A stretch of 17,420 nt of DNA from Desulfobacteraceae bacterium (GTDB lineage Bacteria; Desulfobacterota; Desulfobacteria; Desulfobacterales; Desulfobacteraceae). The translations under genes and the position numbers were made by a program. Below are positions 3,887 to 17,420 of the stretch, in pieces; within the stretch, counting starts at the first letter, position 1, and each line of letters opens with the position of its first letter. The notes beneath the pieces are model-generated. The model ran no database searches. It saw only the letters and a program-made list of their open reading frames with translations, and was not told the DNA's origin. The stretch is from the NCBI GenBank assembly GCA_003354055.1, contig PIVQ01000081.1:1-17420 (forward strand). The letters are read 5' to 3'.

Positions 3887-3911
3887 TTTACTTTTCACCT
3901 TGGGGTTAGGG

Positions 3912-3963
3912 AAAAACCGGTTTCCACGGAAAAGGGAGAGAGGAAACTCCGAGGAAACCGGTT
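3912..3963 (-). terminator. Hairpin with T-run between pduT and eutP (possible attenuator)
   Basis: On the minus strand AACCGGTTTCC (3953-3963) pairs perfectly with GGAAACCGGTT (3915-3925) around a 27-base loop, and the stem runs into TTTTT at 3912-3916. A smaller hairpin just upstream (GGTTG and CAACC around TGCAC) shares bases with the first arm and could compete with it. This looks like a weak terminator or attenuator lowering expression of eutP. The long loop and the CCC after the short T-run reduce confidence. Confidence 0.45.
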
Positions 3964-3988
3964 GGTGCACAACCTTATTAAAGGGTGA

Positions 3989-4543
3989 TCAGATATATTC
4001 TTTGAGCAGCTCCGGTGATGCGGATGGGATGACCACCCGGTTAACCAGCATACCTGATTCTTTTATAGTTTCGCAGGCAGCATCCACTGCCGCATTCACC
4101 GCTGCGGTGTCCCCGTTGACCAGCATAAAGCCTTTACCGCCGATAGCCATGGAGACATGGACCCGAAGCAGGACCACATCGGCTGATTTGACAGCCGCAT
4201 CAGCCGCTTCAATGATGGGAGTTGCGGAAAAGGTTTCAACGATCCCAAGGGATCTGTGGTTACGCCCTGTGAGATCCGCATTTCCGGAAATGGCAACGAA
4301 TACCTGAGGATCCACGTTGGGAATGTTCAGGGCTTCGATGAGAAAGCCTGATGCTTCAATTTTGCCTGCATCCAGGGCAGCGCTGACGGAAGAAACCGAG
4401 CCGCCGATGATAATGAGAAACTTGCCGGAGCAGATGGTTCTGGCGACCAGCGGGGTAACGTCGGCTGCCTTGAGCATGGCATCCTGGGCCTGGTATCCAG
4501 CGGCAATGCTGGACAACTCTAAAATTCCAATGGCATTGGACAT
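3989..4543 (-). CDS. pduT: PduT-like trimeric shell protein (BMC-T) with candidate Fe-S cysteine
   Basis: A 184-residue protein with two fused BMC domains: residues about 3-88 (starting AIGILELSS) and about 95-180 (starting SLGIVETFS). The overall layout and sequence follow PduT, including Cys38 in RTICSGKF at the same position as the cysteine that holds a [4Fe-4S] cluster at the trimer pore in Salmonella PduT (established for that protein; inferred here). Such shell proteins are thought to pass electrons across the shell, working with PduS. The gene starts two bases after the pduS stop, with AAGGA inside the end of pduS as ribosome site, implying translational coupling of the two electron-transfer partners. 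It ends with VIPSASPELLKEYI. Confidence 0.92.
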   Translation of the reverse strand: MSNAIGILELSSIAAGYQAQDAMLKAADVTPLVARTICSGKFLIIIGGSVSSVSAALDAGKIEASGFLIEALNIPNVDPQVFVAISGNADLTGRNHRSLGIVETFSATPIIEAADAAVKSADVVLLRVHVSMAIGGKGFMLVNGDTAAVNAAVDAACETIKESGMLVNRVVIPSASPELLKEYI

Positions 4544-4545
4544 GT

Positions 4546-5895
4546 TTATTCCTTATTTTGATATTCTGATGGTGCTATTCCGGCGGCGTCTATCCGGATA
4601 TTGATACATTTCTCATCCACCCGTGTTACAATCCCGTTCGCAGGGGAATGGATCTCGCTGCCCAGGGCTTCGCCCATGGTGGCAATCTTCTGCCCCTTTT
4701 CCACCCGGTCTCCTTTTGAAACAACCGGTGTTGCAGGCCCGCCGATATGCTGCTGCAGGGGCAGGCTTAAGGATTCAGGGGAAAGGTTGTGGCCTGTAAG
4801 ATCACCCGTATCCGGGAAACGGTTCAGATCCAGCATGGTTTTCAAGCGCCGTGACGGAGTCTTCCTGAACTGTGCCAGCGGATGTCCCTGGTTGGACAGG
4901 GGGCCATTGTATTTAGCCTTCTGTGCCAATGCCTGTTTCCTGTTGTTGATACAGACCTGGGAGGGATAAAGCCCTTCGGGACAGGAGACAAAGGAACACA
5001 GGTTGCACTGGCAGCAGTAGAGGGTATGTGTCACAGGCTCCGCAGGTCGATCCCCGGAATGATGAAAGATCAGGGAACGCATGGCCTTGTGGGGCTGGAT
5101 GGGGTGGCCCAGCAGATATCTCGGGCAAAGCTCGGTGCAGAAGGTACACTGATCGCAGGCAGATTTGCCGATACGGTTTACCCGCTCTTCCGAGGCCATG
5201 TCCGTATATTTTTTGATCAGGACATGGTCTTTGGGCAGAACGATGAGGGCTGCCGTGGTTTTGGTCACCACGCTATCCATATCCGTGACAATCGTTCCCA
5301 TCATGGGGCCGCCCTCAATGACCGCGTAATCAGCCAGAGTCGGGCGGGCATAGGCCAGGAGTTCGGCAAAACTGATGCCGATGGGCACCTCAAGGGTATG
5401 CCGGTTTTCAACATCTCCTGCCAGGTTGATAAACTTGGTGATCACGGGGCCCTCTGAGCCGATGTTGACCAATGACTCCACATTGTTGACCACGATCCCC
5501 TGGGAAATGGGGAGTTCCCCCGGCGGCACAATGGTCCCGGTAGTTTCCCGTATCAGGGTAATTTCATCCCCTGCCGGATAAAAATCATCCACCCGGCAGA
5601 TCTCCACATCAGACGGTAAACAGCCCGCCAGCATATCAATCAGGGCCGTGTGCTTTTTCTTGATGCCGATAATGCCTTTCGGTGCCTCAACTGCGCTCAT
5701 CACCATCCCAAGACCTTTGAAAAAAGCCTCGGTCCGGTGGAGAAGGAGCTGCTTGTCCTTATGCAGCAGAGGTTCACATTCCGCTGCATTGACCAGCACG
5801 GTATGGGCGGTAGCCCCAACCTTTACATGGGTGGGAAATCCCGCACCGCCAGCACCCACCACGCCCTTTTCCTTAATCAGGTTCTGTAAATCCAT
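4546..5895 (-). CDS. pduS: PduS-like RnfC-type flavo-iron-sulfur protein (cobalamin reductase family)
   Basis: A 449-residue protein. The N-terminal glycine-rich stretch GAGGAGFPTHVK (about residues 14-25) is the Rnf/Nqo1-type nucleotide- and flavin-binding start. Two ferredoxin-type cysteine groups follow: CDQCTFCTELCP (247-258) and CCQCNLC...CP (294-306), each able to hold a [4Fe-4S] cluster. The C-terminus (about 385-440, with GDRVEKGQKIA and HSPANGIV) is a barrel-sandwich domain as in RnfC. Salmonella PduS reduces cobalamin inside the propanediol compartment. Here it could reduce cob(II)alamin for EutT, or take electrons from NADH and hand them to the PduT-type shell protein encoded directly downstream. 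The ribosome site upstream of the ATG is weak, 11 bases after eutQ. Confidence 0.92.
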   Translation of the reverse strand: MDLQNLIKEKGVVGAGGAGFPTHVKVGATAHTVLVNAAECEPLLHKDKQLLLHRTEAFFKGLGMVMSAVEAPKGIIGIKKKHTALIDMLAGCLPSDVEICRVDDFYPAGDEITLIRETTGTIVPPGELPISQGIVVNNVESLVNIGSEGPVITKFINLAGDVENRHTLEVPIGISFAELLAYARPTLADYAVIEGGPMMGTIVTDMDSVVTKTTAALIVLPKDHVLIKKYTDMASEERVNRIGKSACDQCTFCTELCPRYLLGHPIQPHKAMRSLIFHHSGDRPAEPVTHTLYCCQCNLCSFVSCPEGLYPSQVCINNRKQALAQKAKYNGPLSNQGHPLAQFRKTPSRRLKTMLDLNRFPDTGDLTGHNLSPESLSLPLQQHIGGPATPVVSKGDRVEKGQKIATMGEALGSEIHSPANGIVTRVDEKCINIRIDAAGIAPSEYQNKE

Positions 5896-5906
5896 AGTAT
5901 AATCTT

Positions 5907-6365
5907 TTATTGGTCTTCCCAGTTGGCCGGATAGGTAACAAAGATAAACTTTGCGTAGTCAGGCACAGAAAACTGGATGGTGGTGTTCTTGGGGATAAAA
6001 ATAATTTCTCCCTGGTTTGCCGTAACCTTGCGGCCGTCCACGATGATGCTCAGGCTGCCCTCAAGCACCACATCCACCTCATCATAGTTCAGGGTCCAGT
6101 CAAAGGTGGTCTCTTTCATCTCCATGACCCCGCAGCCCAGACGCGGACTTTCTTCAACGGTCAGTACATCGGTAAGACCGACCCTGTCACCTGCCTTGCC
6201 CGTATCAAAGGGCTCGGGCTTTACCGTGGCGGTTTTGATGGCCATGACACCGCTTGCGGCATCCACCTGGCGTTCAAAACTTTTACCGGCAACCGCATTA
6301 TCCGCCATATGACGCGCCAGCACTTCCCGGACAATGGCTTCCAGTTTTACATTATCAACATCCAT
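5907..6365 (-). CDS. eutQ: EutQ-like cupin protein with N-terminal helix, lacking the usual N-terminal domain
   Basis: A 152-residue protein whose residues about 50-150 form the EutQ cupin: KPEPFDTGKAGDRVGLTDV, then GVMEMKETTFDWTLNYDEVDVVLEG and DGRKVTANQGEIIFIPKNT. EutQ has been reported to have acetate kinase activity in Salmonella and to be needed for compartment formation. Enterobacterial EutQ is about 230 residues with an extra N-terminal domain. Here that part is replaced by a short amphipathic helix (DNVKLEAIVREVLARHM, residues 4-20) resembling a BMC encapsulation peptide, then a flexible linker. A small gene two places upstream (6713-7042) resembles the missing domain. The ribosome site AAAGGAG is well placed. 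Confidence 0.88.
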   Translation of the reverse strand: MDVDNVKLEAIVREVLARHMADNAVAGKSFERQVDAASGVMAIKTATVKPEPFDTGKAGDRVGLTDVLTVEESPRLGCGVMEMKETTFDWTLNYDEVDVVLEGSLSIIVDGRKVTANQGEIIFIPKNTTIQFSVPDYAKFIFVTYPANWEDQ

Positions 6366-6395: not shown

Positions 6396-6680
6396 CTATT
6401 CTTCAGAGGCGGCCCGTTGAGGCAGAATACCTTCCACATCAGTGTGAGGTCTTGGAATCACATGGATGCTGACCAGTTCCCCTACCCTTTCTGCCGCAGC
6501 AGCACCGGCATCAGTGGCCGCCTTTACAGCGCCGACATCCCCGCGTACAATAACCGTTACCAGACCTGAACCGACCTCTTGCCTGCCAACCAGTTCCACG
6601 TTGGCAGCCTTTACCATTGCATCTGCCGCTTCAATAGCCCCTACAAACCCTCTTGTCTCAATCATTCCCAATGCACTCAT
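6396..6680 (-). CDS. Hexameric shell protein (BMC-H, EutM/PduA type), copy 2
   Basis: A 94-residue single-BMC-domain protein starting [25 protein letters not shown] and ending in a short polar tail ([10 protein letters not shown]). It is the EutM/PduA/CcmK type that forms flat hexamers, the main facets of the shell. The pore-loop segment reads EVGSGLVTV, with Ser at the position lining the central pore. The protein is about 90% identical to the other BMC-H of this operon (10025-10309), but synonymous positions differ at many sites, so the duplication is old or one copy was acquired separately. A strong AAGGAG site lies ten bases before the ATG. Its two neighbours are pieces resembling the two halves of EutQ. 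Confidence 0.95.
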
Positions 6681-7042: not shown

Positions 7043-7612
7043 TTATATCTCCTTGCATCCGTCAATAGTATTTAAAGGGCATAGTGCCCGGATCGTGTCC
7101 GGGTCAGGACTGGGAAGAACAAGCCGGTCAACCAGCTCTTTTCCCAGAGTCCCGCAAGCAGAATTCACTGCCTCTTCCACCGATGCCACGTTTCCGCCTA
7201 CCACCAGATAAGATTTTCCGTTTATGCCGTTGGCCACGGCCAACCTTGCCAGGACTACCCCGGCCTGTTTAACGGCAGCATCAGCCGCTGCAATCCCTGC
7301 CACGGCACGCCGGCTTTCCACAAGCCCCATTGCCATGCCGGAGGTCAAAGGAGTCTGCTTGCCAAGGGCGAAAATCACCTCCGGGCTGACCCGTTGTAAA
7401 ATACGTATATCCGCAGGACCGGGATAAGATTCCCGGGCTGCATTCAGTGCCTCTTCCACATTGGCCTGAAGACCTGCAACCTGGATCATATACCGTCCGG
7501 AGCAGATGCTGGTGCCCCGGATGAGCGAAACATCCGCAGCCTTGAGCATCCTGTCCATGATACCGACCCCCTGAACAATGGTCCGGGTTTCAACAAGTCC
7601 CAGGGTTTCCAT
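7043..7612 (-). CDS. Second trimeric shell protein (BMC-T, PduT-like)
   Basis: A 189-residue protein with two BMC domains, about residues 2-86 (LGLVETRTIVQGVGIMDRML) and about 92-178 (GMAMGLVESRRAVAGIAAADAAV). Cys37 in TSICSGRYM aligns with Cys38 of the PduT-like protein, the residue that binds a [4Fe-4S] cluster at the trimer axis in PduT, so this too may be a redox-active shell tile (inference). It is clearly different in sequence from the other BMC-T and from EutL, giving the operon three trimeric tiles. It starts three bases after eutN with AGAGGAAG as ribosome site. Confidence 0.92.
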   Translation of the reverse strand: METLGLVETRTIVQGVGIMDRMLKAADVSLIRGTSICSGRYMIQVAGLQANVEEALNAARESYPGPADIRILQRVSPEVIFALGKQTPLTSGMAMGLVESRRAVAGIAAADAAVKQAGVVLARLAVANGINGKSYLVVGGNVASVEEAVNSACGTLGKELVDRLVLPSPDPDTIRALCPLNTIDGCKEI

Positions 7613-7615
7613 GGC

Positions 7616-7894
7616 TTAGTCTTCCTCTTCCCGGACTTCCATCTCGTCGATGATGCCCACAATGGCGGCATCCACGGGCGCATCCGCATGCTGAACCGTT
7701 TTCCGGGCAGAACTGCCCAACGCCACAAGAACGTTTTCTCCTATGCCTGCCCCCACCTGATCAACAGCCACAAGACTGTCCCGGGCTCCGGGATTCACCG
7801 GGTCATTCGGCACAACAATCATAAATTTCAAACCGTTCAGACTCTCTTCCTTACGGGTAGCCCATACATTTCCCACTACTTTTCCCACGATCAT
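7616..7894 (-). CDS. eutN: EutN/CcmL-type vertex protein (BMC-P)
   Basis: A 92-residue single-domain protein beginning MIVGKVVGNVWATRKEESL, the classic start of EutN/CcmL/PduN, and containing DQVGAGIGENVLVALGSSAR and DAAIVGIIDEMEV. BMC-P proteins form pentamers that close the vertices of the polyhedral shell. The start at 7894 is chosen because the family begins MIVGKV and AAGGAAGG lies just upstream; the frame is open to 7987, but that would read through the previous gene. It sits two bases after the stop of the eut-specific protein of unknown function. One vertex gene is enough for a closed shell. Confidence 0.95.
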   Translation of the reverse strand: MIVGKVVGNVWATRKEESLNGLKFMIVVPNDPVNPGARDSLVAVDQVGAGIGENVLVALGSSARKTVQHADAPVDAAIVGIIDEMEVREEED

Positions 7895-7896
7895 TT

Positions 7897-8562
7897 TTAA
7901 GCCTTCCTTTTCCCGGCAACGCTGCCGGTGATAATTCGGATGCTGTTTTCCCTGGCCATATCCGCGGCAAGGGCAGTTACCAGACACCCGGGCCCGGTAA
8001 TAATTTCAGTTACGCCTATGGCTGACAGTTCGGTGACAACCCTTTCCGTAACCAGACGGTCATGGATAGTCCTTGAATGTCCGCAGCCCGATTGGAACCG
8101 GCACAGCCCGAACCCGGCCAGGGTCTCTTCATAACCTCTGTACAATTGAAACAGGGCCGGCGGTGCCGTGTCCTTGAATTCATAATAGTCAAAGGCCAGG
8201 ACCTCGATCTTCTGCCCCTGCATGAGAAGGGACAGGACCAGCCCCGGTATCCTGCCGGCAGTTCGTCCTAAGGCCAGATCGGCCATTTCCTTAAGGCAGA
8301 GACGGGGCAGGATGATCCGTTCATATGCCGCATCCACAATGTCCTGAGCAGTAACCTGATCCTTATGTTCCATGAACACGGGACAGGCAGCTGTTGGCAA
8401 TAACCGGGCAAGTTTTTTTTTATCCACCCTGTCCTGCTCTGCCAGAATCAGATATCTTGGCCCGGTTGAAACCTGCGACTGTTGGACAGACATCTGATTA
8501 TTCAAGCCGGATTCAGCCAGAACCTTCCGGACGATCTCCTCAATTAATTGGACAGACGGCAT
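7897..8562 (-). CDS. Eut-operon conserved protein of unknown function (eut_hyp type)
   Basis: A 221-residue protein resembling the conserved hypothetical family found only in BMC ethanolamine operons (the TIGR02536-type family, from memory). Its N-terminus MPSVQLIEEIVRKVLAESGL is an amphipathic helix like those that direct enzymes into BMCs. The body has ILAEQDRVDKK near 40-49, a basic/hydrophobic core with YYEFKDTAPPALFQLYRGYEE in parts near 126-146, then FQSGCGHSRTIHDRLVTERVV near 156-176 and TGPGCLVTALAADMA near 189-203. The conserved Cys, His and Arg residues could form an active or metal site. The start at 8562 is chosen for the GGAGG site four bases upstream. The gene overlaps the pduL end by 19 bases. 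It is probably a lumen protein, but its reaction is unknown. Confidence 0.75.
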   Translation of the reverse strand: MPSVQLIEEIVRKVLAESGLNNQMSVQQSQVSTGPRYLILAEQDRVDKKKLARLLPTAACPVFMEHKDQVTAQDIVDAAYERIILPRLCLKEMADLALGRTAGRIPGLVLSLLMQGQKIEVLAFDYYEFKDTAPPALFQLYRGYEETLAGFGLCRFQSGCGHSRTIHDRLVTERVVTELSAIGVTEIITGPGCLVTALAADMARENSIRIITGSVAGKRKA

Positions 8563-9203
8563 GGTTCCTCCGTTTCCGGGATCACGATCCTGCACCGGGT
8601 GTTGCTGTCACAGCCGCAGCCGTTGGCCTCATCCGCATCAATGTGCAGCGCCAGACGGAACTCCGGATGAACCCGGACCAGAACGTCCCGGAAGACGGCC
8701 GGGCGTTGACCATCCATATTGACACAGACCAGCTGCCGGTCTTCGACATTCAATTTTGCGGCATCTTCCGGGGACATGTGAATGTGGCGGCCGGCAACGA
8801 TCACTCCCTGTTCCAGGCCGATAATTTTCTTTGTGGAGGCCAGGACAATACCGGGGGTTCCCTGGATATCTCCGGACTGGCGGATGGGCACCCGGATGCC
8901 TAAGGTTCTTGCATCGGTCAGGGAAATCTCCACCTGGGAGGCTTCCCGGGCAGGGCCAAGCACCGCCACATTGTCCATCACGCCCTTGGGACCGATGAGT
9001 CTGACCCTTTCTTTGCACAGATACTGGCCGGGCTGGGACAATTCTCTCATCGGGGTCAGGTCGGAACCAAACAGTTCCAGGGCATCGGCCCTGGACAGAT
9101 GAACATGCCTGGCCGACATCTCCACGGGAATGGCATCGTCTGCTTCCCCTGTAAGCCGGGCCATCACCTGACCCACAATTTCATCCAAATTTATCTCTTG
9201 CAT
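8544..9203 (-). CDS. pduL: PduL-type phosphotransacylase
   Basis: A 219-residue protein of the PduL family, which converts acetyl-CoA and phosphate to acetyl phosphate and frees CoA inside the compartment. Visible are an N-terminal amphipathic encapsulation helix (INLDEIVGQVMARL, residues 4-17), the first zinc motif in SARHVHLS (His33, His35), GPAREASQVEIS (83-94), the second zinc motif GRHIHMSPEDA (His140, His142) and HIDADEANG (His187). It takes the role that EutD plays in enterobacterial eut operons. An unusual C-terminal tail of about 25 residues contains GCGCDSNTRC (195-204) and another Cys near the end. The ribosome site is AAGGG. It starts five bases after eutT and overlaps the next gene. 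Confidence 0.93.
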   Translation of the reverse strand: MQEINLDEIVGQVMARLTGEADDAIPVEMSARHVHLSRADALELFGSDLTPMRELSQPGQYLCKERVRLIGPKGVMDNVAVLGPAREASQVEISLTDARTLGIRVPIRQSGDIQGTPGIVLASTKKIIGLEQGVIVAGRHIHMSPEDAAKLNVEDRQLVCVNMDGQRPAVFRDVLVRVHPEFRLALHIDADEANGCGCDSNTRCRIVIPETEEPCRLSN

Positions 9204-9208
9204 TACGC

Positions 9209-10018
9209 TTATCCCTTTGCTGCCAAACCGGGTTTTACTTTAGACGACGGGCCGTACAGCCCGGCCCGTTCTCTTACCATCATGATATACAGGGCAGAAC
9301 TCATCCGGTTCAAAGCGGTGAGAATATCCGGCCGCAGTACTTCGAATTCCCGGTGAAAGGCTCTTACTCCTGCAGTTTCCGCCTCCCGAACCAGGCTTCT
9401 TAAAAAATTGAGGCCCAGAAGAGAGGTTCCCATGTCTGCGGACGGTGTAATATGCTTAACCCCATAGGCTTTTTTAGGATTATGAGAATGCTCCCGAAGC
9501 TGGTCCGAGGTCAGCCCAAGGGCTGAGGCTTTTTCCAGGGGACTATCCAGCACATCCGCCTTCATGATCTGTCGCACCCAGTCCAGAATCTCATCCAGCT
9601 CCCGCACCATCCCGTCCAGCCCCTTTTCCAGGGCACCGGCCTGGACCATGAGAACGGCGGACTGAAAACTATCCAGCCGCCCCCGGAATACGATCCGATC
9701 ATGATCCTTTGCCACCAGAAGGTCCCCCTTAAGATGGGTCATGAATTCAGGCTTTGCCTCAAAACATCCCCCGTCCAGGGCTGACACATACTTAGGTTTG
9801 ACCGGAACGGGCAGGTCTCGTATCCGGCCTGATACCGAATCAGATCCGGCACCGGCTTTTGCTTTAGCAGCCTCCCCGGCCGTCACGACTGCTATCCTCC
9901 GTTCACTCAGAAATCCCCTGGCAGAAGGGGTTAGGATCTGCCCTTCCGCCAAGGTAAACCGGTCAACCGGATTGTTCCTGAAAAGGGATCGCAAGGATGC
10001 CTCGGTGACAACTCTCAT
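9209..10018 (-). CDS. eutT: EutT-type cobalamin adenosyltransferase
   Basis: A 269-residue protein that should make adenosylcobalamin for ethanolamine ammonia-lyase from ATP and reduced cobalamin. Residues 1-46 carry the EutQ/EutT N-terminal motif (ILTPSARGFLSERRIAVV). The core begins KPEFMTHLKGDLLVAKDHDRIVFRGRLDSFQSAV (in two parts, about 89-122), as in EutT, followed by four helices ending RPDILTALNRMSSALYIMMVRERAG. The cysteine-rich metal motif of enterobacterial EutT (H-x11-CC-x2-C) is not visible; only Cys85 lies near that region. This resembles the cysteine-poor EutT type reported in Listeria. The gene lies six bases after a BMC-H gene, with a modest AGGA ribosome site. Confidence 0.88.
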   Translation of the reverse strand: MRVVTEASLRSLFRNNPVDRFTLAEGQILTPSARGFLSERRIAVVTAGEAAKAKAGAGSDSVSGRIRDLPVPVKPKYVSALDGGCFEAKPEFMTHLKGDLLVAKDHDRIVFRGRLDSFQSAVLMVQAGALEKGLDGMVRELDEILDWVRQIMKADVLDSPLEKASALGLTSDQLREHSHNPKKAYGVKHITPSADMGTSLLGLNFLRSLVREAETAGVRAFHREFEVLRPDILTALNRMSSALYIMMVRERAGLYGPSSKVKPGLAAKG

Positions 10019-10024
10019 TTAATC

Positions 10025-10309
10025 TTATTCCTGAACCTGGGGAAGGATCAGTTCAACATCACCGTGGGGACGGGGAATGACGTGGATGCTGACCAATTCT
10101 CCAACCCGTTCGGCAGCGGCTGCTCCTGCATCAGTGGCAGCTTTCACAGCGCCCACATCACCTCTTACAATCACGGTGACTAGCCCTGCACCCACTTGGG
10201 TTTTCCCGACAAGCTTTACATTGGCCGCTTTGACCATGGCATCTGCTGCTTCCACAGCTCCGACAAATCCTCTTGTTTCAATCATTCCCAATGCGCTTAA
10301 TGATGACAT
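10025..10309 (-). CDS. eutM: Hexameric shell protein (BMC-H, EutM/PduA type), copy 1
   Basis: A 94-residue single-BMC-domain protein ([20 protein letters not shown] at 5-24, then [20 protein letters not shown] and [16 protein letters not shown]). It forms the hexameric facets of the shell. Compared with the other BMC-H copy it has three extra residues at the start, and its pore-loop segment reads QVGAGLVTV, with Ala instead of Ser at the central pore position. A strong AAGGAG site lies upstream. The 62 bases between it and the aldehyde dehydrogenase gene hold no terminator or gene, so it is cotranscribed. The symbol follows closest similarity to EutM by eye; PduA or PduJ would be equally defensible. 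Confidence 0.95.
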
Positions 10310-10371: not shown

Positions 10372-11811
10372 TTACATTTTTTCCAGCTGGGCCAACACCA
10401 TCCGGGTGATCTGCTCGACCTCGGCTGCCATATCCGTTTCCGCGCAGGCTGCGGGGGCGTTCTCCGGCATAACGCCTGTATCATAGGCAACATACCGGAT
10501 GTTAAACAGATGCTGGGGTCCGACATTATCCGATGTTGAACTACCGCCCACAGTACCGCACCCCAGGGTGAATGAGGGGGGCAGAAACGTTGATATTCCC
10601 ACGGCTCCCTGGGTAGAAGGAGTATTGACCAAAAGACGGGAGACCGGCTTTTTCAGGGCAAATTCCCGGATAACGGCATCGTTATTTGAGTGAATGGCCA
10701 GGGAATGGCCGATGCCGCCGTTCTTCAGGAGTTTAAAACAGAGCTCGCAAGCTTCCTGCCAGTCCTCAGCCGTATAAAATCCGAGGAGGGCAGTGAGTTT
10801 TTCCTTGGAAAAGGGAAACCCTTGGCCTATGCCTTTCTCCCGGTAGACCAAAAGAAGGGTGCCCGTCGGGATGCTGATACCGGCAAGCTCCGCAATATAG
10901 GCGGCACTTTTCCCGACAATGGCCGGGTTCATGGAGCCGTCGGGACGTTCCATTACCGGTTTCACCTTCACGACCTCATCCTCGTTCAGGAAATAACCGC
11001 CCCGGGCTGCAAGCTCCCGGACCACGGTATCTGCCACAATATTTTCAGTGACAATGGCCTGTTCCGAGGCGCAGACCGTTCCGTTATCAAAAGTCTTACT
11101 CTGGATAATCCGGTCCAGAGCCTTAGGGATATCTGCGGATCGTTCGATAAAGGCCGGAACATTACCGGCCCCCACACCCAGGGCTGGTGTGCCTGAGCTG
11201 TAGGCCGCCTTAACCATGGCAGGTCCGCCCGTGGCCAGGATAAGATCGGCCTTTTTCATGAGTTCTGCCGTGCCTTGGATGGTAGGAATGCTCATCATGG
11301 TTGTAAGATCTGCAGGGGCGCCCTGGGAGATTAATGCCACTTGGATAATTTCCACGGTGCGGCGGATGCAATTGGCCGCAGAAGGATGAGGACTGAACAC
11401 AATGGCGTTCCCGGCCTTGATTGCAATCATTGCCTTGTACAGGGTGGTGGAGGTGGGATTTGTGGACGGAATCAGAGCTGCAATCACACCGGCGGGTGTT
11501 GCAATTTCCAGAAGTTTTTTCTCCTTGTCCTCTTTGACAATCCCGATGGTCTTCATGGGGGAGATATGTTCGTACAGAGATTTTGTGGCCAGGTAATTTT
11601 TGGCCTGCTTGTCCTCCCATTTCCCGAATCCCGTATCTTCCACAGCCATTTTGGCCAATTCTTCGGCATGGGCTTCCCCTGCCCCGGCAATGGCCTGGGT
11701 CAGGGCATCGACCTTCTCCTGGGACAGGCCGGATAAAAAACCCTGAGCCTTTCGGGCACCCCTGACCAGGGCTCGTGCCTCCTGGATGGATAGTAAATCT
11801 TTATCTACCAT
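10372..11811 (-). CDS. eutE: CoA-acylating acetaldehyde dehydrogenase (EutE-type), BMC-targeted
   Basis: A 479-residue protein of the aldehyde dehydrogenase superfamily, acylating branch: acetaldehyde + CoA + NAD+ to acetyl-CoA + NADH. The catalytic cysteine is Cys247 in TFDNGTVCASEQ. Other landmarks are TPAGVIAALIPSTNPTSTTL (105-124), SPHPSA (140-145) and GVGAGNVPAFIERSADI (212-228). Sequence style is closer to AdhE-like and firmicute BMC enzymes than to enterobacterial EutE, which begins with its targeting peptide. Here the targeting-like helix is at the C-terminus (AAEVEQITRMVLAQLEKM, residues 462-479) after a Pro/Ala linker. NADH made here needs re-oxidation, but no alcohol dehydrogenase gene is seen in the window. 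Confidence 0.93.
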   Translation of the reverse strand: MVDKDLLSIQEARALVRGARKAQGFLSGLSQEKVDALTQAIAGAGEAHAEELAKMAVEDTGFGKWEDKQAKNYLATKSLYEHISPMKTIGIVKEDKEKKLLEIATPAGVIAALIPSTNPTSTTLYKAMIAIKAGNAIVFSPHPSAANCIRRTVEIIQVALISQGAPADLTTMMSIPTIQGTAELMKKADLILATGGPAMVKAAYSSGTPALGVGAGNVPAFIERSADIPKALDRIIQSKTFDNGTVCASEQAIVTENIVADTVVRELAARGGYFLNEDEVVKVKPVMERPDGSMNPAIVGKSAAYIAELAGISIPTGTLLLVYREKGIGQGFPFSKEKLTALLGFYTAEDWQEACELCFKLLKNGGIGHSLAIHSNNDAVIREFALKKPVSRLLVNTPSTQGAVGISTFLPPSFTLGCGTVGGSSTSDNVGPQHLFNIRYVAYDTGVMPENAPAACAETDMAAEVEQITRMVLAQLEKM

Positions 11812-11854: not shown

Positions 11855-12400
11855 TTATTTTTCTTGTGCCTTTAAAAATGCGCGGATTTTTTTGATCAGT
11901 TCCTTCTTCCTGGCAAACTTGACCTGTTCCGGTGTCATGGGAAATTGCGTTCCAGAACCTGGTTCTGCGATCAGGGATCGGGCCAGTTTCCTTAAATGCA
12001 CCACCCGCATCCGTGACAGTTTTGACGGATCGAGAAGCGCAGGTGCCGGCACTTCAGGTTTCGACAACTCCCGGGCAATAGCCGGGACTTCAGTTTCGGC
12101 ATCAGCCGGCTGACAGGCGCAGGAATCAGGCCCACACACAAGGGCAGGGATTCCCTCCCCCGTTCTGCCGATAACCGTATAAGACTGAACCTGACCCAGC
12201 CGTTCTGCAGCAGATCTTGCCGCTTCCACTCCGGCTTTAACGGAAGAGATATCCCCCTGGAGCTTTACTGTGACCAGGCCCCGGCCAATGAATTCCAGAC
12301 CGGTAAGGGTGACATCGGCGGACTTCACAGCCGTGTCCGCAGCCTCCAGGGCAGGCACCAGTCCCATGGTTTCAACCAGGCCCAACGCAAGGGTGTCCAT
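11855..12400 (-). CDS. BMC-H shell protein with C-terminal extension (EutK-like layout)
   Basis: A 181-residue protein. Residues about 5-88 are one BMC domain (ALGLVETMGLVPALEAADTA; pore loop EFIGRGLVTV with Arg at the pore position). A cysteine cluster C-x4-C-x-C follows (89, 94, 96: CGPDSCAC), then a Pro/Ala/Glu linker (97-125) and a basic helical tail of about 50 residues (RMRVVHLRKLARSL, then FARKKELIKKIRAFLKAQEK). EutK also joins a BMC domain to a basic nucleic-acid-binding domain (a winged helix), and PduK joins one to an Fe-S motif. This protein has hints of both. The tail resembles small SAP/Rho-N-like nucleic-acid-binding modules by eye (L..LA...... then KK.ELI..I), but this is a weak resemblance. 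It starts one base after eutL. Confidence 0.85.
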   Translation of the reverse strand: MDTLALGLVETMGLVPALEAADTAVKSADVTLTGLEFIGRGLVTVKLQGDISSVKAGVEAARSAAERLGQVQSYTVIGRTGEGIPALVCGPDSCACQPADAETEVPAIARELSKPEVPAPALLDPSKLSRMRVVHLRKLARSLIAEPGSGTQFPMTPEQVKFARKKELIKKIRAFLKAQEK

Positions 12401-12401
12401 C

Positions 12402-13055
12402 CTAATACCTCATGGGGTTATCTGCCACGGAATGGACGGCCTCGGCAAAGGCATCACAGGCAGCCATACAGGCAGACTGGCTGCCGGTAAGCAGACCGCC
12501 GCCAAAGTTAGTTTCAGACGGCGGGCCGAAAAAAGCGGCCATGGATACATCCGCGGCCTTCATGGCCACATCCAGGGCATAGATGGATTCAATGGGCGGG
12601 GCAATAAGATAGGCCAACGCCTCTCCCTCCGGGATGCCTGCGGTCTCGGACAGATAGGAACCTGTCCTTGAAATGCAATGGGCAAAATAGGCAATGGAAT
12701 CATCTTCATTGGCTGAATAAAAACAGGCATCGTTTTCAACATAATCAACCGCCGCATCAATCCCGCTTTTAACCTCAGCCGGGGTAGGACCGGACATGAT
12801 ACCGATGAACTCCCCTGCAAGCTTGGTATTGGCGTTGTCTGCCCCACCGTAAAAAGACTTGGCATATGCCACTGAGACCTCAGCCTTTTTGGTGGCCTCG
12901 TCCAGAGCCGCATATCCCACATCATCGCAGTCTGTAGTTAAAAGTCCCAGGCTTCTGTGGGTCGGGTCCAGCTTCAATTCTTTGGCCATGTCCGGGTTGA
13001 CATTGGGAATCAACCGGATACTCAATACCTGTGCGCGTAGTGCATCACCTTTCAT
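12402..13055 (-). CDS. eutL: EutL trimeric shell protein
   Basis: A 217-residue protein matching EutL, a trimeric shell tile with two circularly permuted BMC domains. It starts MKGDALRAQVLSIRLIPNVN and contains PTHRSLGLLTTDCDDVGYAA, AKSFYGGADN, GEFIGIMSGPTPAEV, AHCISRTGSYLSE and GGGLLTGSQSACMAACDAF. Known EutL structures show a large gated central pore and bind ethanolamine at side pores, so it may control substrate entry. The start at 13055 is chosen for the MKGDALRA start and AGGAGAG site; the frame is open to 13136, but that lies inside eutC. It follows eutC by ten bases. Length is normal for the family. Confidence 0.95.
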   Translation of the reverse strand: MKGDALRAQVLSIRLIPNVNPDMAKELKLDPTHRSLGLLTTDCDDVGYAALDEATKKAEVSVAYAKSFYGGADNANTKLAGEFIGIMSGPTPAEVKSGIDAAVDYVENDACFYSANEDDSIAYFAHCISRTGSYLSETAGIPEGEALAYLIAPPIESIYALDVAMKAADVSMAAFFGPPSETNFGGGLLTGSQSACMAACDAFAEAVHSVADNPMRY

Positions 13056-13065
13056 TGGGTCTCTC

Positions 13066-13968
13066 CTATAATTTGAGTTCCAGGCCACTGGCCTTTTGAT
13101 CGAGCATTTTTTTGATGACTTCGGCAATATGGGCACCGGCTTCCACCGCAGGGGTGCCGCCTCTGTGGATATTGGAAATCACGGTACGATTGGCTTCGGG
13201 CATGGTGGTAGAGGCCTTGTAGGCCATGTAGCAGGACATGCTTTCTCCGGTGGCAAGGCCCGGACGCTCACCGATGAGCAATACGGTAACCTCAGGGGTC
13301 AGCAACTCGCCGACGGCATCCATTGACGGTACCCGGCCGTACTTGAGAAAGAATGGGTTACCCGCATCAATACCGTAACCCTTTAAGCCCTGGACAATAG
13401 ATTTAAATGCATCTGCGGCATTGGCCTCCACGGCAGTTGAACTCAGGCCGTCGGCAATAAAAATCTGAACTTGGGGCTGGGGTTTGCAGATCTCCTTGAG
13501 ACGCTGTGCAGCTTCAGGAGAAAGTTTCCTGCCAAGATCCGGACGGGTGAGAAACTCATCCTTGTCCTTGCAGCAGGAAAGCACGGTTTCAAGCCCGAGA
13601 CTCTGTACAAATTCATCGGACACATTTGAGAACACCGCGTCCATGGCCACGGCATGATCGGCCCGGAACCTGAGTAACGACCTTGTAAGGGGTCTTGGGC
13701 CTGCACGCCAGATGCCAACCCGTGCCGGGGTGGTTTTCTTGAGTTTGAGATAGATCGCAGGGTTTGCCGCATCAGGCACCAGGAGTTCGGTTTTCAGGTC
13801 AACCTCGGTAAGGTCTGGCAAATCATTGTCACTTAGGCCGGCAGTTATGACCGGGACAGTCGTTGCGGCCGGGGCAACAGGAACGGATGCGCTGTCGGCG
13901 GTATGAGCAGACGCCATGTCTCCCATGACCTCTTGAATAATCTGTTTTATCTTATCTTCTGAAATCAC
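13066..13968 (-). CDS. eutC: Ethanolamine ammonia-lyase small subunit
   Basis: A 300-residue light chain of ethanolamine ammonia-lyase, which with EutB splits ethanolamine to acetaldehyde and ammonia using adenosylcobalamin. The N-terminus (ISEDKIKQIIQEVMGDM) is an amphipathic helix like the known EutC encapsulation peptide, followed by an Ala/Val/Pro-rich linker to about residue 50. Conserved core segments are TPARVGIWRAGPRPLTRSLLRFRADHA, QIFIADGLSSTAVEANA, VTVLLIGERPGLATGESMS and NRTVISNIHRGGTPAVEAGA (in parts). I chose the GTG at 13968: it has a perfect AGGAG site seven bases upstream and gives the family-like start, whereas the ATG at 14010 lies inside eutB with no site. Gap to eutB is 16 bases. 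Confidence 0.95.
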   Translation of the reverse strand: MISEDKIKQIIQEVMGDMASAHTADSASVPVAPAATTVPVITAGLSDNDLPDLTEVDLKTELLVPDAANPAIYLKLKKTTPARVGIWRAGPRPLTRSLLRFRADHAVAMDAVFSNVSDEFVQSLGLETVLSCCKDKDEFLTRPDLGRKLSPEAAQRLKEICKPQPQVQIFIADGLSSTAVEANAADAFKSIVQGLKGYGIDAGNPFFLKYGRVPSMDAVGELLTPEVTVLLIGERPGLATGESMSCYMAYKASTTMPEANRTVISNIHRGGTPAVEAGAHIAEVIKKMLDQKASGLELKL

Positions 13969-13984
13969 TATGAATCTCCTTCGC

Positions 13985-15349
13985 CTATTTAATAAAGATT
14001 GAGGCATCACCGGCCCGACTGCTTAATCTGCCGTTTTCCCGCAGTCCCATTTTTTCAAGCCAGGCTGCAAATTCCCTTGTCGGGTTCAGGTTGAGGGTTT
14101 CTCTAAGGGTGGATGCATCATGATAGCCTGTGCACTGGTAGTTAAGCATGATGTCGTCGCCCTGGGGAACCCCCATGAAATAGGTGCAGCCGGCAGCAGC
14201 CAGGAGCACGGCCAGGTTTTCAATATCATTCTGGTCTGCCTTCATGTGGTTGGTGTAACAGGCATCGACGCCCATAGGCAGGCCGGAAAGCTTGCCCATG
14301 AAATGGTCTTCAAGCCCGGCCCGGATTACCTGTTTGCTGTCGTAGAGGTATTCGGGTCCGATGAACCCGACAACGGTGTTGACCAGAAAGGGGGAAAAAT
14401 TCTTGGCAAATCCGTAGCACCTGGCTTCCATTGTCACCTGGTCCACCCCATGGTGGGCTTCGGAAGAGAGTTCCGATCCCTGGCCGGTCTCAAAGTAAAG
14501 TACGTTGGGTCCGGTTGAGGTGCCCTCTTTAAGGACCAGGTCCCGTGCCTCGGCCACAAGCTTACCGGTAAGTCCGAATGCGGTATTCCCCTTCTCACTA
14601 CCGGCAATACTCTGGAAGATTAAGTCGGCTGGCGCCCCCTTGCGGATGGCCTCCATCTGGGTCGTCATATGGGCCAGTACACAGGTCTGGGTAGGAATCT
14701 CATAGGTTTCTTTGATGTCCTGGAAGAGCCTGAGAATGGCAGACACTGAATCGGCTGTATCATTGACCGGGTTCAGGCCGATGACGGCATCTCCCACCCC
14801 GTAGCTTAAGCCCTCAAAGGTGGAGATGCGGATACCGTCCAAATCATCCGTAGTATGGTTGGGCTGGAGCCGGAAGCCCAGGGTCCCCTCTTCACCGATG
14901 GTGGTGTTGCAATGGGCAGTCACCCGGATTTTTTTGGCGGCATAGATCAGGTCCAGGTTGGACATGAGTTTGGCCACACCTGCAATCATTTCCGAAGTCA
15001 GGCCACGGGAGATACGACGGATGTCGCAGGCGTCTGTCTCATTGCTGACCAGCCATTCCCTGAATTCCGCCATCGTCCAATTCTTAATTGTCTCATAGAC
15101 CCGCTCGTTGACCTGGTCCTGAATAATCCGGGTCACCTCGTCTTCCTCATAGGGTACGGCCGGATTATTTCTAAGATCGCCCAAAGTGAGATTGCTTAAG
15201 ACCTCCTTGGCCGCAATCATCTCGGTAACGGAACCTGCCGCAACACCGGCCAGCTGGTCTCCGGATTTTTCTTCGTTCGCCTTTGCCATGACGTCATTAA
15301 CATCATTGAACGCGTAAAGGGTTCCAAACAACTTTGTTTTAAGTCTCAT
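13985..15349 (-). CDS. eutB: Ethanolamine ammonia-lyase large subunit
   Basis: A 454-residue catalytic subunit, full length for EutB. Residues known from Salmonella/E. coli EutB structures are all present with the same numbering: Arg160 and Gln162 (FRLQPNHTTDD), Asn193 (GLNPVND), Glu287 (YFETGQGSE), Phe329 (VVGFIGPE) and Asp362 (GVDACYTNH). The TIM-barrel enzyme binds adenosylcobalamin and ethanolamine and forms an (EutB2)3 core with EutC. AAGGA lies upstream of the ATG, 14 bases after eutA. The intact active site says the operon is for ethanolamine rather than propanediol or glycyl-radical substrates, despite its pdu-type accessory genes. Confidence 0.98.
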   Translation of the reverse strand: MRLKTKLFGTLYAFNDVNDVMAKANEEKSGDQLAGVAAGSVTEMIAAKEVLSNLTLGDLRNNPAVPYEEDEVTRIIQDQVNERVYETIKNWTMAEFREWLVSNETDACDIRRISRGLTSEMIAGVAKLMSNLDLIYAAKKIRVTAHCNTTIGEEGTLGFRLQPNHTTDDLDGIRISTFEGLSYGVGDAVIGLNPVNDTADSVSAILRLFQDIKETYEIPTQTCVLAHMTTQMEAIRKGAPADLIFQSIAGSEKGNTAFGLTGKLVAEARDLVLKEGTSTGPNVLYFETGQGSELSSEAHHGVDQVTMEARCYGFAKNFSPFLVNTVVGFIGPEYLYDSKQVIRAGLEDHFMGKLSGLPMGVDACYTNHMKADQNDIENLAVLLAAAGCTYFMGVPQGDDIMLNYQCTGYHDASTLRETLNLNPTREFAAWLEKMGLRENGRLSSRAGDASIFIK

Positions 15350-15363
15350 TTTGTTTTCCTTAT

Positions 15364-16806
15364 TTAATAGCCGAAGACCAGTGTCTTTACGATAACGGGC
15401 ACGACCCTGCCGTTGGCAAGACCTTTGCCGATATCGATGTAGTCACCGTTTTCAACCTTAATTGTGTCGATACAGATCACCTGTTTCTTCTGACCCAGCC
15501 GGGCCCGCAATGCCTGACCCAGAGCCTTTGCCAGATCGTTTTCCACCACAATGGTCAAGGGAGCCGCCAGATGCATCACACGATCCATGCCGGTGATGAT
15601 ACTTTTAGCCAGCGTCTGGATCTCATCGAATCCCGGCGCGACGGGTCCGGTAAATGCCAGGGCCGGCATCTGATTTTCCCCCTGAAGGTCAAACCATGCC
15701 ACTTTTTTCTCTATGATCACGGCCCATTGGTTCAGACCGGCCGCCTCATCTTCAGGTGACAGCTTTAAAACCGGAACATTTAGAAGGGGAAGGACGTCAT
15801 CGGTAAAGGTCACCGTGGAGCCGCTAATATCCGTGGTATGGGATCCTGCCCCCACCACTGTGGCCCTGATGGTTTCCTTTGCCGCAATTACCGGCACCTC
15901 CCTGACAAGGGCTGAATTTGAAATAGCTTGACCCAGAAACAGACCCAGATCGCCAAAGGCAAACATATCGGACGGTGCCGTTGCTGTAATACAGTCAGCA
16001 ACTCCGCCGGAAAAAGTCAGGTAGTCAATGGGGGAGTCCAGAGCCAGGGTCTTGTCCGTGGCCATAGCTTCCAGATCCGGGGTGGCCGAAACAATCCCCA
16101 AAGCCTGGACCAGAATATCTGCCATGGCCGATGCCAGGGTCTGAATCTGGTCCGGCGTCATCACACGGCCCTGTTCCAGGGGAATCCCCAGAGTGCCTGC
16201 AAGATGACGGATCTTTTTCGATGCATAGGCGACAGTGCCCTTTTTATCGGAAAATTTAACCAGGCGTCCCCCGATATCCAGACAGGCCGTATCCCTGACC
16301 TCTCCATTGTGGAAGACCGCAATATTGGTGGTACCACCGCCGATGTCCAGGTTGGCCACCGCAGCCCCGCGGGTTTTAGATTCTGCATGGGCGTGGGCTC
16401 CCTTCCCGGCAATGATCCCTTCCAGAGCGGGGCCGGCTGTGGCCACTACAAATTCTCCGGCCAAACCGGACAGGGTATTCAGAACCTGGGCGGCATTTGA
16501 TTTACGGGCGGTTTCTCCGGTGATGATGACGGCACCGGTACCGACCTGCGCTGGTGTCACCCCAGCCCGTTCATACTCGGTTTCCACAAGACGCCTGACC
16601 CCTTTTCCGTCAATCTCACTGGCGGAAATCAAAGGGGTATAATGGATCTCACTTCTGTGGATGACCCGCTTGTCCATGATCCTGATTCTGGGGACGGAAA
16701 CCATGGAGGCCATATTTTCGATACGGATCTCACTGAACACCAGCTGAGTGGTGGAAGTGCCGATATCAATGCCCACACTTAAAATGGTTTCTTTCACGCT
16801 ATTCAT
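15364..16806 (-). CDS. eutA: EutA, ethanolamine ammonia-lyase reactivating factor
   Basis: A 480-residue actin/Hsp70-type ATPase that swaps damaged cobalamin out of ethanolamine ammonia-lyase. The phosphate-1 motif VGIDIGTSTT is at residues 11-20 and phosphate-2 NLDIGGGTTN at about 152-161. SETARKSNA-like text (GETARKSNAAQVLN, 97-110), a LTFSGGVADCI segment and VVGAGSHTTDISGST further on are also typical of EutA. It is the first gene after the leader. The ATG at 16806 directly abuts the best ribosome site (AAAGGGAG), which is too close. Either a weaker AGGGG nine bases upstream serves this ATG, or translation begins at the GTG three codons later (16797), which is nine bases from GGGAG. Confidence 0.95.
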   Translation of the reverse strand: MNSVKETILSVGIDIGTSTTQLVFSEIRIENMASMVSVPRIRIMDKRVIHRSEIHYTPLISASEIDGKGVRRLVETEYERAGVTPAQVGTGAVIITGETARKSNAAQVLNTLSGLAGEFVVATAGPALEGIIAGKGAHAHAESKTRGAAVANLDIGGGTTNIAVFHNGEVRDTACLDIGGRLVKFSDKKGTVAYASKKIRHLAGTLGIPLEQGRVMTPDQIQTLASAMADILVQALGIVSATPDLEAMATDKTLALDSPIDYLTFSGGVADCITATAPSDMFAFGDLGLFLGQAISNSALVREVPVIAAKETIRATVVGAGSHTTDISGSTVTFTDDVLPLLNVPVLKLSPEDEAAGLNQWAVIIEKKVAWFDLQGENQMPALAFTGPVAPGFDEIQTLAKSIITGMDRVMHLAAPLTIVVENDLAKALGQALRARLGQKKQVICIDTIKVENGDYIDIGKGLANGRVVPVIVKTLVFGY

Positions 16807-16852
16807 CTCCCTTTACCCCTGTTGACAAGGGTTCCGGCGGCTAATCCGCCAT

Positions 16853-16900
16853 AAAAAAAAGCCTTAGATGCGGATGATATAGCTCTCCCGCATCTAAGGC
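16853..16900 (-). terminator. Intrinsic terminator in the leader before eutA
   Basis: On the minus strand GCCTTAGATGCGG (16888-16900) pairs perfectly over 13 bp with CCGCATCTAAGGC (16861-16873) around a 14-base loop, followed by eight T (16853-16860). This is a textbook Rho-independent terminator lying about 47 bases upstream of eutA in the direction of transcription, so it would stop transcripts coming from the kinase gene or leader unless it is prevented from folding. Confidence 0.9.
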
Positions 16901-16939
16901 TTCGTTGCCTTATTACTTTCCTGTACCCCGTTGTACAGG
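16895..16939 (-). promoter_or_regulatory. Putative EutV (ANTAR) dual-hairpin antitermination element
   Basis: On the minus strand two hairpins follow one another. The first (16920-16939) has a 7-bp stem CCTGTAC/GTACAGG and a six-base loop AACGGG. After seven bases the second (16895-16912) has a 6-bp stem TAAGGC/GCCTTA and a six-base loop AACGAA. Both loops have A at position 1 and G at position 4, the hallmark of RNA sites bound by ANTAR proteins such as EutV. The 3' arm of the second hairpin is also the start of the terminator's 5' arm, so folding of one excludes the other. With a EutW-type kinase gene directly upstream, this strongly fits ethanolamine-induced antitermination of the whole operon. 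Confidence 0.82.
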
Positions 16940-16957
16940 CGTCTGTTACAAATTGTC

Positions 16958-16977
16958 AGGACCGGTTGTCCGGTCCT
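16958..16977. repeat. Perfect 8-bp hairpin upstream of the ANTAR element
   Basis: AGGACCGG and CCGGTCCT pair around a four-base loop. No T-run follows on the operon strand. It may end or stabilise the kinase transcript, or be part of the leader fold. Its loop does not fit the ANTAR A..G.. rule. Confidence 0.5.
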
Positions 16978-17017
16978 TCGTGTTTTGGCCTGCCCCCGAT
17001 TGAAGGGAAGGCCTATT

Positions 17018-17094
17018 CCGGATCAGACTGGTGCAGTCAGATCCTGATTAAACTGGTACAGTCGAACCCTTGGTTAGACCGGGACGGTCGAACC
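17018..17094 (-). repeat. Three degenerate 25-26 base tandem repeats over the kinase stop codon
   Basis: On the minus strand three units begin with GGTTCG, GGTTCG and GATCTG, spaced 26 and 25 bases apart. Each contains a small dyad (GACCG/CGGTC, ACTG/CAGT, GACTG/CAGTC) with a three-base loop. The first unit encodes the last residues and stop of the kinase (GSTVPV then TAA). The second would read GSTVPV-stop and the third DLTAPV-stop in their own frames, which argues for duplication of the gene end. A protein-binding array is an alternative reading. Confidence 0.6.
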
Positions 17095-17420
17095 TTGCTC
17101 ATGGAAAAAATCAAACAATACCTTGGTGCCGTTTTCCCCGGATTCCACGGTGAGGTTTCCCCCGAGTTTATCAGAGACAAGCTGCTGGACGATTCTGCGT
17201 CCCAAAGAGCCCACATGGCTGGCCTGGTCCTCATCATACCCCACACCATCATCAATGATGGCAATATTGGAATAGGTTTCCCCCCGGTGGATCTCCACCC
17301 TGATATGCCCCTTGTCCCTGCCCACAAATGCGTACTTAACGCAGTTTTGAATCAACTCGTTAACCACAAGGGCTATGGAGGTGGCAGTGTCCGAATTTGT
17401 TTTAATGGAGTCCCCGCCGA
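17074..17420 (-). CDS. eutW: EutW-type sensor histidine kinase, C-terminal ATPase domain (partial)
   Basis: The gene enters from the right edge; about 115 C-terminal residues are visible. They form the ATP-binding domain of a HisKA_2/HWE-like kinase: the N box TATSIALVVNELIQNCVKYAF, interrupted here for length as TATSIALVVNEL and IQNCVKYAF, then the G1 box IDDGVGYD and the G2-like segment GSLGRRIVQQLVSDKLGG, ending DFFHEQGSTVPV. This kinase type is the EutW/PdtaS class, which usually signals to an ANTAR-domain RNA-binding response regulator (EutV). The dual-hairpin element just downstream makes that pairing likely. The sensor domain and any EutV gene lie outside the window, so the eutW name rests on context. 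Confidence 0.8.
   Translation of the reverse strand, partial: GGDSIKTNSDTATSIALVVNELIQNCVKYAFVGRDKGHIRVEIHRGETYSNIAIIDDGVGYDEDQASHVGSLGRRIVQQLVSDKLGGNLTVESGENGTKVLFDFFHEQGSTVPV

Follow-up and report, generated by a model that had tools for sequence, protein, structure and literature searches.

The window, which is the whole 17,420-nt stretch of Desulfobacteraceae DNA that was analyzed, carries on its minus strand an eut microcompartment operon preceded by a leader. The window ends inside a kinase gene located upstream of this leader, and the 3′ end of the gene that is present (17074–17418) encodes the HATPase_c domain of an EutW-like histidine kinase, with 108 of 113 residues identical to the EutW that adjoins EutV in the nearest relative, locus L001. 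The first gene past the leader is eutA (15364–16806), which matched NF007992 above cut-off, and it is followed by eutB (13985–15349), eutC (13066–14010) and the shell protein gene eutL (12402–13136), all three also above cut-off; the true starts of eutC and eutL may be inside their frames. Further along the same strand are the genes of an EutK/EutM-like BMC shell protein, below cut-offs (11855–12400), the acetaldehyde dehydrogenase EutE (10372–11811; TIGR02518, above cut-off), a BMC-domain shell protein (10025–10309), an EutT-like cobalamin adenosyltransferase, below cut-off (9209–10018), and a PduL-type phosphotransacylase (8544–9203), which scored above cut-off for NF011652 and below it for NF040837 (EutD). 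Other minus-strand genes encode an EutN/CcmL-type shell vertex protein (7616–7900, the end of a frame at 7616–7987), a double-BMC-domain shell protein (7043–7612), a BMC-domain shell protein (6396–6680), EutQ (5907–6365), a PduS/RnfC-like flavoprotein matching Complex1_51K and RnfC_N (4546–5895), another double-BMC-domain shell protein (3989–4543), and EutP (3464–3970). The PduL-type phosphotransacylase and the two-component regulator are features shared with EUT2 loci, and PduS is present as in EUT2B and EUT2D loci (Axen et al. 2014, PMC4207490). The main text of that survey contains neither EutV nor antiterminat-, which indicates that leaders were not treated in it.

The leader between eutW and eutA

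The leader, also on the minus strand, is located in the gap that separates the kinase gene, ending at 17074, from eutA, starting at 16806. It contains a first hairpin, P1 (16920–16939), in which a 7-bp stem closes the hexaloop AACGGG (CCTGTAC-AACGGG-GTACAGG), and, after the 7-nt linker AAAGTAA (16913–16919), a second hairpin, P2 (16895–16912), in which a 6-bp stem closes the hexaloop AACGAA (TAAGGC-AACGAA-GCCTTA). Both loops have adenosine in position 1 and guanosine in position 4 (A1 and G4). The hairpins are followed on the same strand by an intrinsic terminator (16861–16900) with a perfect 13-bp stem, which is formed by the 5′ arm GCCTTAGATGCGG (16900–16888) and the 3′ arm CCGCATCTAAGGC (16873–16861) and closes a loop at 16887–16874, and by its T8 tract (16853–16860). 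The 5′ arm of the terminator overlaps the 3′ arm of P2, so that the terminator and P2, the putative antiterminator, are mutually exclusive. The initial annotation had described the two loops, the gap of 7 nt between the hairpins, and the terminator that uses the 3′ arm of P2, and its letters and coordinates proved correct.

A scan of the window found only one dual hairpin, which is the one that bears the terminator. When the window was resampled 200 times with a first-order Markov model, a dual hairpin, regardless of a terminator, was found at 0.185 per sequence, with up to 3 in one sequence, which means that it is not very rare by itself. The combination of a dual hairpin with a terminator was found in 0 of the 200 resamples. 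The calculated fold energies were −9.2 kcal/mol for P1, −6.6 kcal/mol for P2, and −28.1 kcal/mol for the terminator, and the comparison of the latter two values suggests that the leader should terminate transcription without help. The whole leader folded far better than its shuffled versions, with a z value of −8.8 to which other upstream hairpins contribute, and the energy minimum of the entire leader, terminator included, contains P1. No sigma-70-like promoter was found within 16780–17420. The window gave no Rfam match at gathering score, and the six matches obtained with a lax threshold, all of them below gathering scores, were to unrelated families and were rejected as an identity; hence, the element is named by no Rfam family.

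Regulator genes and eut leaders in relatives

A comparison of EutA with a genome collection returned one matching locus, L001, with 85% identity. This locus belongs to a Desulfobacterales MAG (genome G001), which agrees with the earlier guess, made from the letters of the window, that the host was not a Firmicute. The gene order in L001 is eat, eutS, eutV, eutW, leader, eutABC, eutL, a shell gene and eutE, and the loops of its eutA leader are AACGAG in P1 and AGCGGA in P2. The protein encoded directly before the kinase has Response_reg and ANTAR domains, and thus the ANTAR regulator that had been expected beside the kinase is present there in the nearest relative. Its closest PDB entries (E = 1.3e-60) were 6wsh and 6ww6, which we take to be the E. 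faecalis EutV response regulator of Walshe et al. In the EutW-like kinase of L001, HisKA_2 is preceded by a GAF_PdtaS domain and by a PAS match below cut-off.

The RNA-contact and phospho-acceptor positions described for EutV by Walshe et al. (PMC8934654) were compared in 11 EutV sequences of relatives, and most of them are kept, also in L001. The residues D54, R142, K149, E160, M172, and R175 were the same in all 11 sequences, and Y164, R168, and K143 in 10 of 11 each; the EutV of L001 has A143 and F164 at these contact positions. K147 was kept in one sequence and replaced by R in the ten others. Neither N173 nor R177 was kept in any of the 11 sequences, with D in place of N173 in all of them, and S or P in place of R177.

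The search for EutV in the 291 genomes of the order gave matches in all of them, mostly to receiver domains, and only full-length matches of at least 66% identity were counted. Such a close EutV was present in eight of the 291 genomes, including G001, and in all eight the eutV–eutW pair adjoins eutA (the domain scan was that of L001).

A second EutV copy, 57–59% identical to the EutV of L001, was also observed at the far end of the eut locus, together with eutS, in L034 (8396–9410; G148), L036 (7753–9163; G170, with eutP too), and L038 (406–1591; G186). No EutW match was found beside these copies in the three stretches, and, because the L038 stretch ends 405 bases past its EutV, a kinase could be missed there. 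No site was found at any of the three second copies.

The eutA leaders of the window, L001, and seven other loci, which represent eight genomes and the window, were compared. In all nine leaders P1 has a stem of 7–11 pairs and a hexaloop with A1 and G4, and a terminator with a T-run uses the 3′ arm of P2. P2 is built on GGC-loop-GCC, with G4 in all nine loops, A1 in five, and G1 in four. Hence, the expectation that orthologous leaders would keep the shared arm and the A1/G4 loops held for the arm, for P1, and for G4 of P2, but A1 of P2, if read literally, fails in four orthologues because these have G1. The linker, as drawn, is 5–12 nt long in seven of the nine leaders, and it is 18 nt in L040 and 2 nt in L042.

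Because MAFFT alignments of nine and of eight leaders split the P1 stems, the covariance model R1 was built from four leaders of relatives, with P1 and the terminator as its structure and with the window excluded, while the rest was aligned by Infernal. R1 found the window leader with a score of 42.4 bits and E = 1e-8 in 231 kb. Sites were also found before eutH (six loci), eat (L001), and eutS (seven loci), so that the eut loci contained 23 sites in total, three in each of six of the eight genomes, and two each in G001 and G048. With the alignment of these 23 sites fitted to the structure, the covariation score was 0.608 versus 0.211 in shuffles, and the proportion of paired cells was 96.7% versus 74.6%. 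Thirteen of the 17 pairs were changed on both sides, which included six of eight in P1 and seven of nine in the terminator; the pairs of P2 were left out of this count, because they are mutually exclusive with those of the terminator. The closing pairs A-U and C-G of P1 were invariant over the 23 sites, and closing pairs of this type matter in E. faecalis (PMC3369931). In the sites of the eutH/eat type P2 is weakly paired, with a mismatch under the closing pair, and in L040 the closing pair itself is C-A; as the stem is interrupted, the hexaloop is less certain there.

The co-occurrence of the sites with EutV was analyzed using model R2, built from all 23 eut-locus sites. At E ≤ 1e-4 sites were present in 10 of the 291 genomes, which were all eight genomes with close EutV, where the result is partly built in because R2 contains their own sites, and G162 and G198, with one site each. 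At E ≤ 1 there were 48 matches in ten genomes, of which 34 with E ≤ 4e-5 were followed and 14 with E values of 0.03–0.99 were excluded. In the scans of the order and of the phylum the filters were stricter and no more than 15 and 11 candidates per genome, respectively, were evaluated; some sites were missed, so that the absence of a site in these scans says little. EutB matches were found in 29 of the 291 genomes, in 17 with at least 52% identity and in 12 with 34–39% identity. The latter 12 were excluded from the comparison, and none of them is among the ten site-bearing genomes. The 17 genomes consisted of eight with both close EutV and sites, and nine without either (Fisher P = 4e-5, which ignores relatedness, although the genomes are related and the counts are not independent). 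Receiver-ANTAR proteins of G271 and G276, with 39–41% identity, were dropped as candidates, and these genomes had no R2 site better than E = 0.2.

In both G162 and G198 the site is located before a frame in which a resemblance to a glutamate synthase domain can be seen by eye. The 1.8-Mb genome of G162 (site L104) yielded no ANTAR gene, and the ANTAR gene present in G198 is another frame, of 303 aa. Frames resembling the same domain by eye follow the sites of L103, L104, L108, and L109, in other Desulfobacterota; among the nine phylum loci the downstream genes were read in the right direction for L108 and L109 only. It was also observed that G120, G148, G170, G186, G202, and G214 have two to four EutB-like matches each, with the extra ones at 54–60% identity, and some of them partial at contig ends.

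Second-loop variation and sites outside the eut locus

The loops were counted in 44 sites from 33 loci (3 loci were site-less), with the P2 loop taken to be the six nucleotides ahead of the terminator arm; the sites of L112, L113, and G060 (E of 4e-4 to 6e-4) were left out. In P1, A1 was present in 43 sites and G4 in all 44, and in L110 the loop of P1 could not be aligned as a hexaloop. In P2, G4 was present in all 44 sites, and position 1 was G in 30 and A in 14, with the window among the latter; since the sites come from related genomes and some are near-identical, the 30 of 44 do not represent 30 events. The published rule has A1 and G4 in both loops (PMC3369931; PMC8164766), and in E. faecalis induction was reduced by the second-loop substitution A53U. 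In the structural work of Walshe et al. no protein contact to A1 was described, and the proposed role of this base was to prevent pairing across the loop (PMC8934654). The 30 natural G1 loops have A5 in 29 cases and G5 in one, so that neither a G1-C5 nor a G1-U5 pair is possible. A1-U5 was present in one P2 loop and two P1 loops among the 44 sites. As far as can be judged from their sequences, the natural G1/A5 loops fit the cross-loop-pairing proposal, and, as natural variants of this one base, they could serve as a direct test of it. Three of the genomes (G120, G202, and G214) carry a single ANTAR protein, which suggests that the same EutV would there need to recognize loops of the A1 as well as of the G1 kind.

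Six relatives (G120, G148, G170, G186, G202, and G214) have two further R2 sites each outside the eut locus, with E values from 3e-10 to 4e-5. The first of these sites is located in all six genomes 173–632 nt before an hdrC-like gene, which is followed by an hdrB-like gene (L090, L091, L093, L094, L095, and L096), and the encoded proteins are in the five others 82–91% identical to those of L096. The hdrC-like protein of L096 has 4Fe-4S dicluster domains and HdrC as its best NCBIfam match, and the hdrB-like protein has a CCG domain and its best NCBIfam matches are the fumarate reductase anchor SdhE and HdrB; as all these scores are below cut-off, the term hdr-like denotes a family resemblance and no assignment. 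The stretch between the site and the hdrC-like gene is long in five of the six relatives. A mafft view of the hdr leaders, in which L091 is misplaced, contained no further nameable element.

The second extra site is located 58–67 nt before the gene of an ~245-aa protein, again in all six genomes (L092, L097, L098, L099, L100, and L101), and this protein is in the five others 53–83% identical to that of L099. The Pfam scan of the L099 protein gave no match. An AlphaFold model of the ~245-aa protein (pLDDT of 80.5, with the C-terminal 33 residues low) matched 19 PDB entries at E ≤ 0.001, without exception methionine synthase reactivation domains, including 1j6r with TMt of 0.75 and rmsd of 4.0. 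There were 15 homologues of this protein, and the organism names, which were given for two of them, were Desulfoluna sp. and D. spongiiphila. A DUF2284 gene was observed at most 3 kb from the site in all six loci; L097 and L098 have it on the same strand, and the four others on the opposite one.

In G120, G202, and G214, with their single ANTAR protein, EutV is the only candidate regulator found for these sites. These data lead us to favor, with some reserve, the view that in Desulfobacterota the recognition code of EutV is relaxed, with a purine in position 1 of P2 and strict A1 in P1, and that its regulon is enlarged by the hdrC/hdrB-like redox pair and the protein with the MetH-reactivation fold, which could serve in corrinoid repair. 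If this is true, ethanolamine sensing by antitermination would be coupled to electron transfer and corrinoid maintenance, and the enlarged regulon would take ANTAR control past the nitrogen genes, to which most of the published sites belong. At E ≤ 1e-4 the genome nearest to the window, G001, has no sites other than those of eat and eutA, and its copies of the hdr-type and reactivation-fold proteins are distant, with 34% and 38% identity, and, hence, the wider regulon is not claimed for the organism of the window.

Proposed antitermination and its alternatives

Considered together, the parts of the leader, the EutV of the relatives, the kept leaders, the match of R1, and the co-occurrence of sites with EutV argue strongly that the leader in the window is an EutV-type ANTAR attenuator, and we regard it as highly probable that it controls the eut microcompartment operon. 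The control by EutV proposed in the initial annotation thus appears to be supported by the linked EutV/EutW genes and the kept leaders of the relatives. By default, the leader RNA would fold the strong terminator after P1, and the polymerase would stop ahead of eutA. By analogy with E. faecalis, ethanolamine would be the signal upon which EutW, encoded by the adjoining gene, would phosphorylate EutV. Dimers of EutV would then bind the hexaloops of P1 and P2, and with P2 held in this way its 3′ arm would be unavailable to the terminator. The regulator would, therefore, probably grip both hairpins and block the formation of the terminator, and the polymerase could read on into the eutABC/shell operon.

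This arrangement is similar to the E. faecalis EutV/EutW system (PMC3369931; PMC8934654) in the two A1/G4 hexaloop hairpins with a short linker, in the terminator overlapping P2, in the eut genes as targets, and in the adjacent genes of a receiver-ANTAR EutV and a kinase EutW, which are here those of the relatives. The 7-nt linker of the window is also inside the range of 5–12 nt described for the E. faecalis eut sites (PMC3369931). On the other hand, the host is here a member of Desulfobacterota, the eut sites of the relatives are located before eutH or eat, eutS, and eutA, position 1 of their P2 is often G, and N173 and R177 of their EutV are changed. While E. faecalis has a sponge RNA with a cobalamin riboswitch (EutX), none was found here, as no Rfam riboswitch reached the gathering score in the window or in eight eut stretches of relatives. 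Such a riboswitch is not defining for the EutV class, because Clostridium is described without an obvious one (PMC5821096).

The data point to a known EutV mechanism in a new lineage, with more target genes and a slightly different second loop in the relatives, which would extend complete EutVW/ANTAR control beyond the Firmicutes, to bacteria of the sulfate-reducer type. NasR and AmiR systems have other signal parts than EutV/EutW, and Pelobacter carbinolicus is a delta-proteobacterium. The NasR/nasF and AmiR/amiE attenuators share the ANTAR RNA motif with the leader and have other targets (PMC3369931). ANTAR sites were also described before nitrogenase genes of P. carbinolicus and glutamate synthase genes of Desulfotomaculum reducens, and these are similar in being dual hairpins of anaerobes and in the organization of the regulon, while their targets are different (PMC3369931). 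The eut locus of Fusobacterium nucleatum, which is also Gram-negative and has an ANTAR-domain EutV, belongs to another phylum, and whether antitermination takes place there is left open in that report (PMC11796344). Among the matches listed in the literature search no title or abstract start dealt with EutV/ANTAR control of eut in Desulfobacterota, although the supplementary tables of PMC3369931 may list such sites. The searches for Desulfoluna with ethanolamine, and for EutV and EutW with sulfate-reducing, gave no match, and ethanolamine is not mentioned in PMC11887813, which concerns Desulfobacteraceae.

The choice of ethanolamine as the signal is consistent with the position of eutV–eutW next to eutA in all eight genomes and with the activation of the E. 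faecalis EutW by ethanolamine (PMC5821096). It appears unlikely, although it is the alternative that deserves the most weight, that EutV antitermination responds here not to ethanolamine alone, with the kinase sensing corrinoid, acetaldehyde, or redox state. Such a cue could be considered because the extra sites in six relatives precede corrinoid-type and redox-type genes, namely those of the MetH-reactivation fold and the hdrC/hdrB-like pair. It would also be compatible with the domains of the L001 kinase, which do not fix its ligand, and with the lack of a detected cobalamin riboswitch that would bring in B12.

The assignment of the leader as an EutV-dependent attenuator may also be compared with two explanations that do not require it in this form. 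That the terminator is a mere constitutive end of the eutV–eutW transcript, with the two loops there by coincidence, is very improbable, since, even though the terminator comes after eutW and dual hairpins as such are not very rare, the P1 stem covaries, with invariant closing pairs and with its A1/G4 loop kept across the sites, the dual-hairpin/terminator unit is also present before eutS, eutH, or eat, where no eutW ends, and the presence of sites tracks EutV. Equally hard to credit is a three-state switch, in which a third hairpin at 16931–16951 (TTGTA-A-CAG/CTG-TACAA) would exclude P1 and add a further input: this hairpin, suggested in the initial annotation, can indeed be drawn, has both arms identical in the window and L001, was formed at the energy minimum (−10.8 kcal/mol) of a single 42-nt piece of the window, made up of the P1 segment and the 22 nt upstream of it, and reached a probability of 0.30, versus 0.35 for P1, in a 179-nt piece up to P2, but alone it has −4.6 kcal/mol against the value given above for P1, its probability was at most 0.001, with 0.99 for P1, in window pieces of 57 and 82 nt, and at most 0.003 in L001, P1 was formed in the upstream-plus-P1 folds of all eight other leaders, and the full-leader fold with the terminator likewise contained P1, so that a conserved third state is not supported.

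Two other features were observed in the region upstream of the EutV-type hairpins. A strong 8-bp hairpin (AGGACCGG/CCGGTCCT) is located in the leader at 16958–16977, a short distance upstream of P1. Three imperfect copies of an ~25-bp unit (GGATCAGACTGGTGCAGTCAGATC-like), in which dyad symmetry can be seen by eye, spaced by 25–26, are located at 17017–17094, where they span the end of eutW and the start of the leader, and in L001 only a remnant of these repeats was seen by eye.
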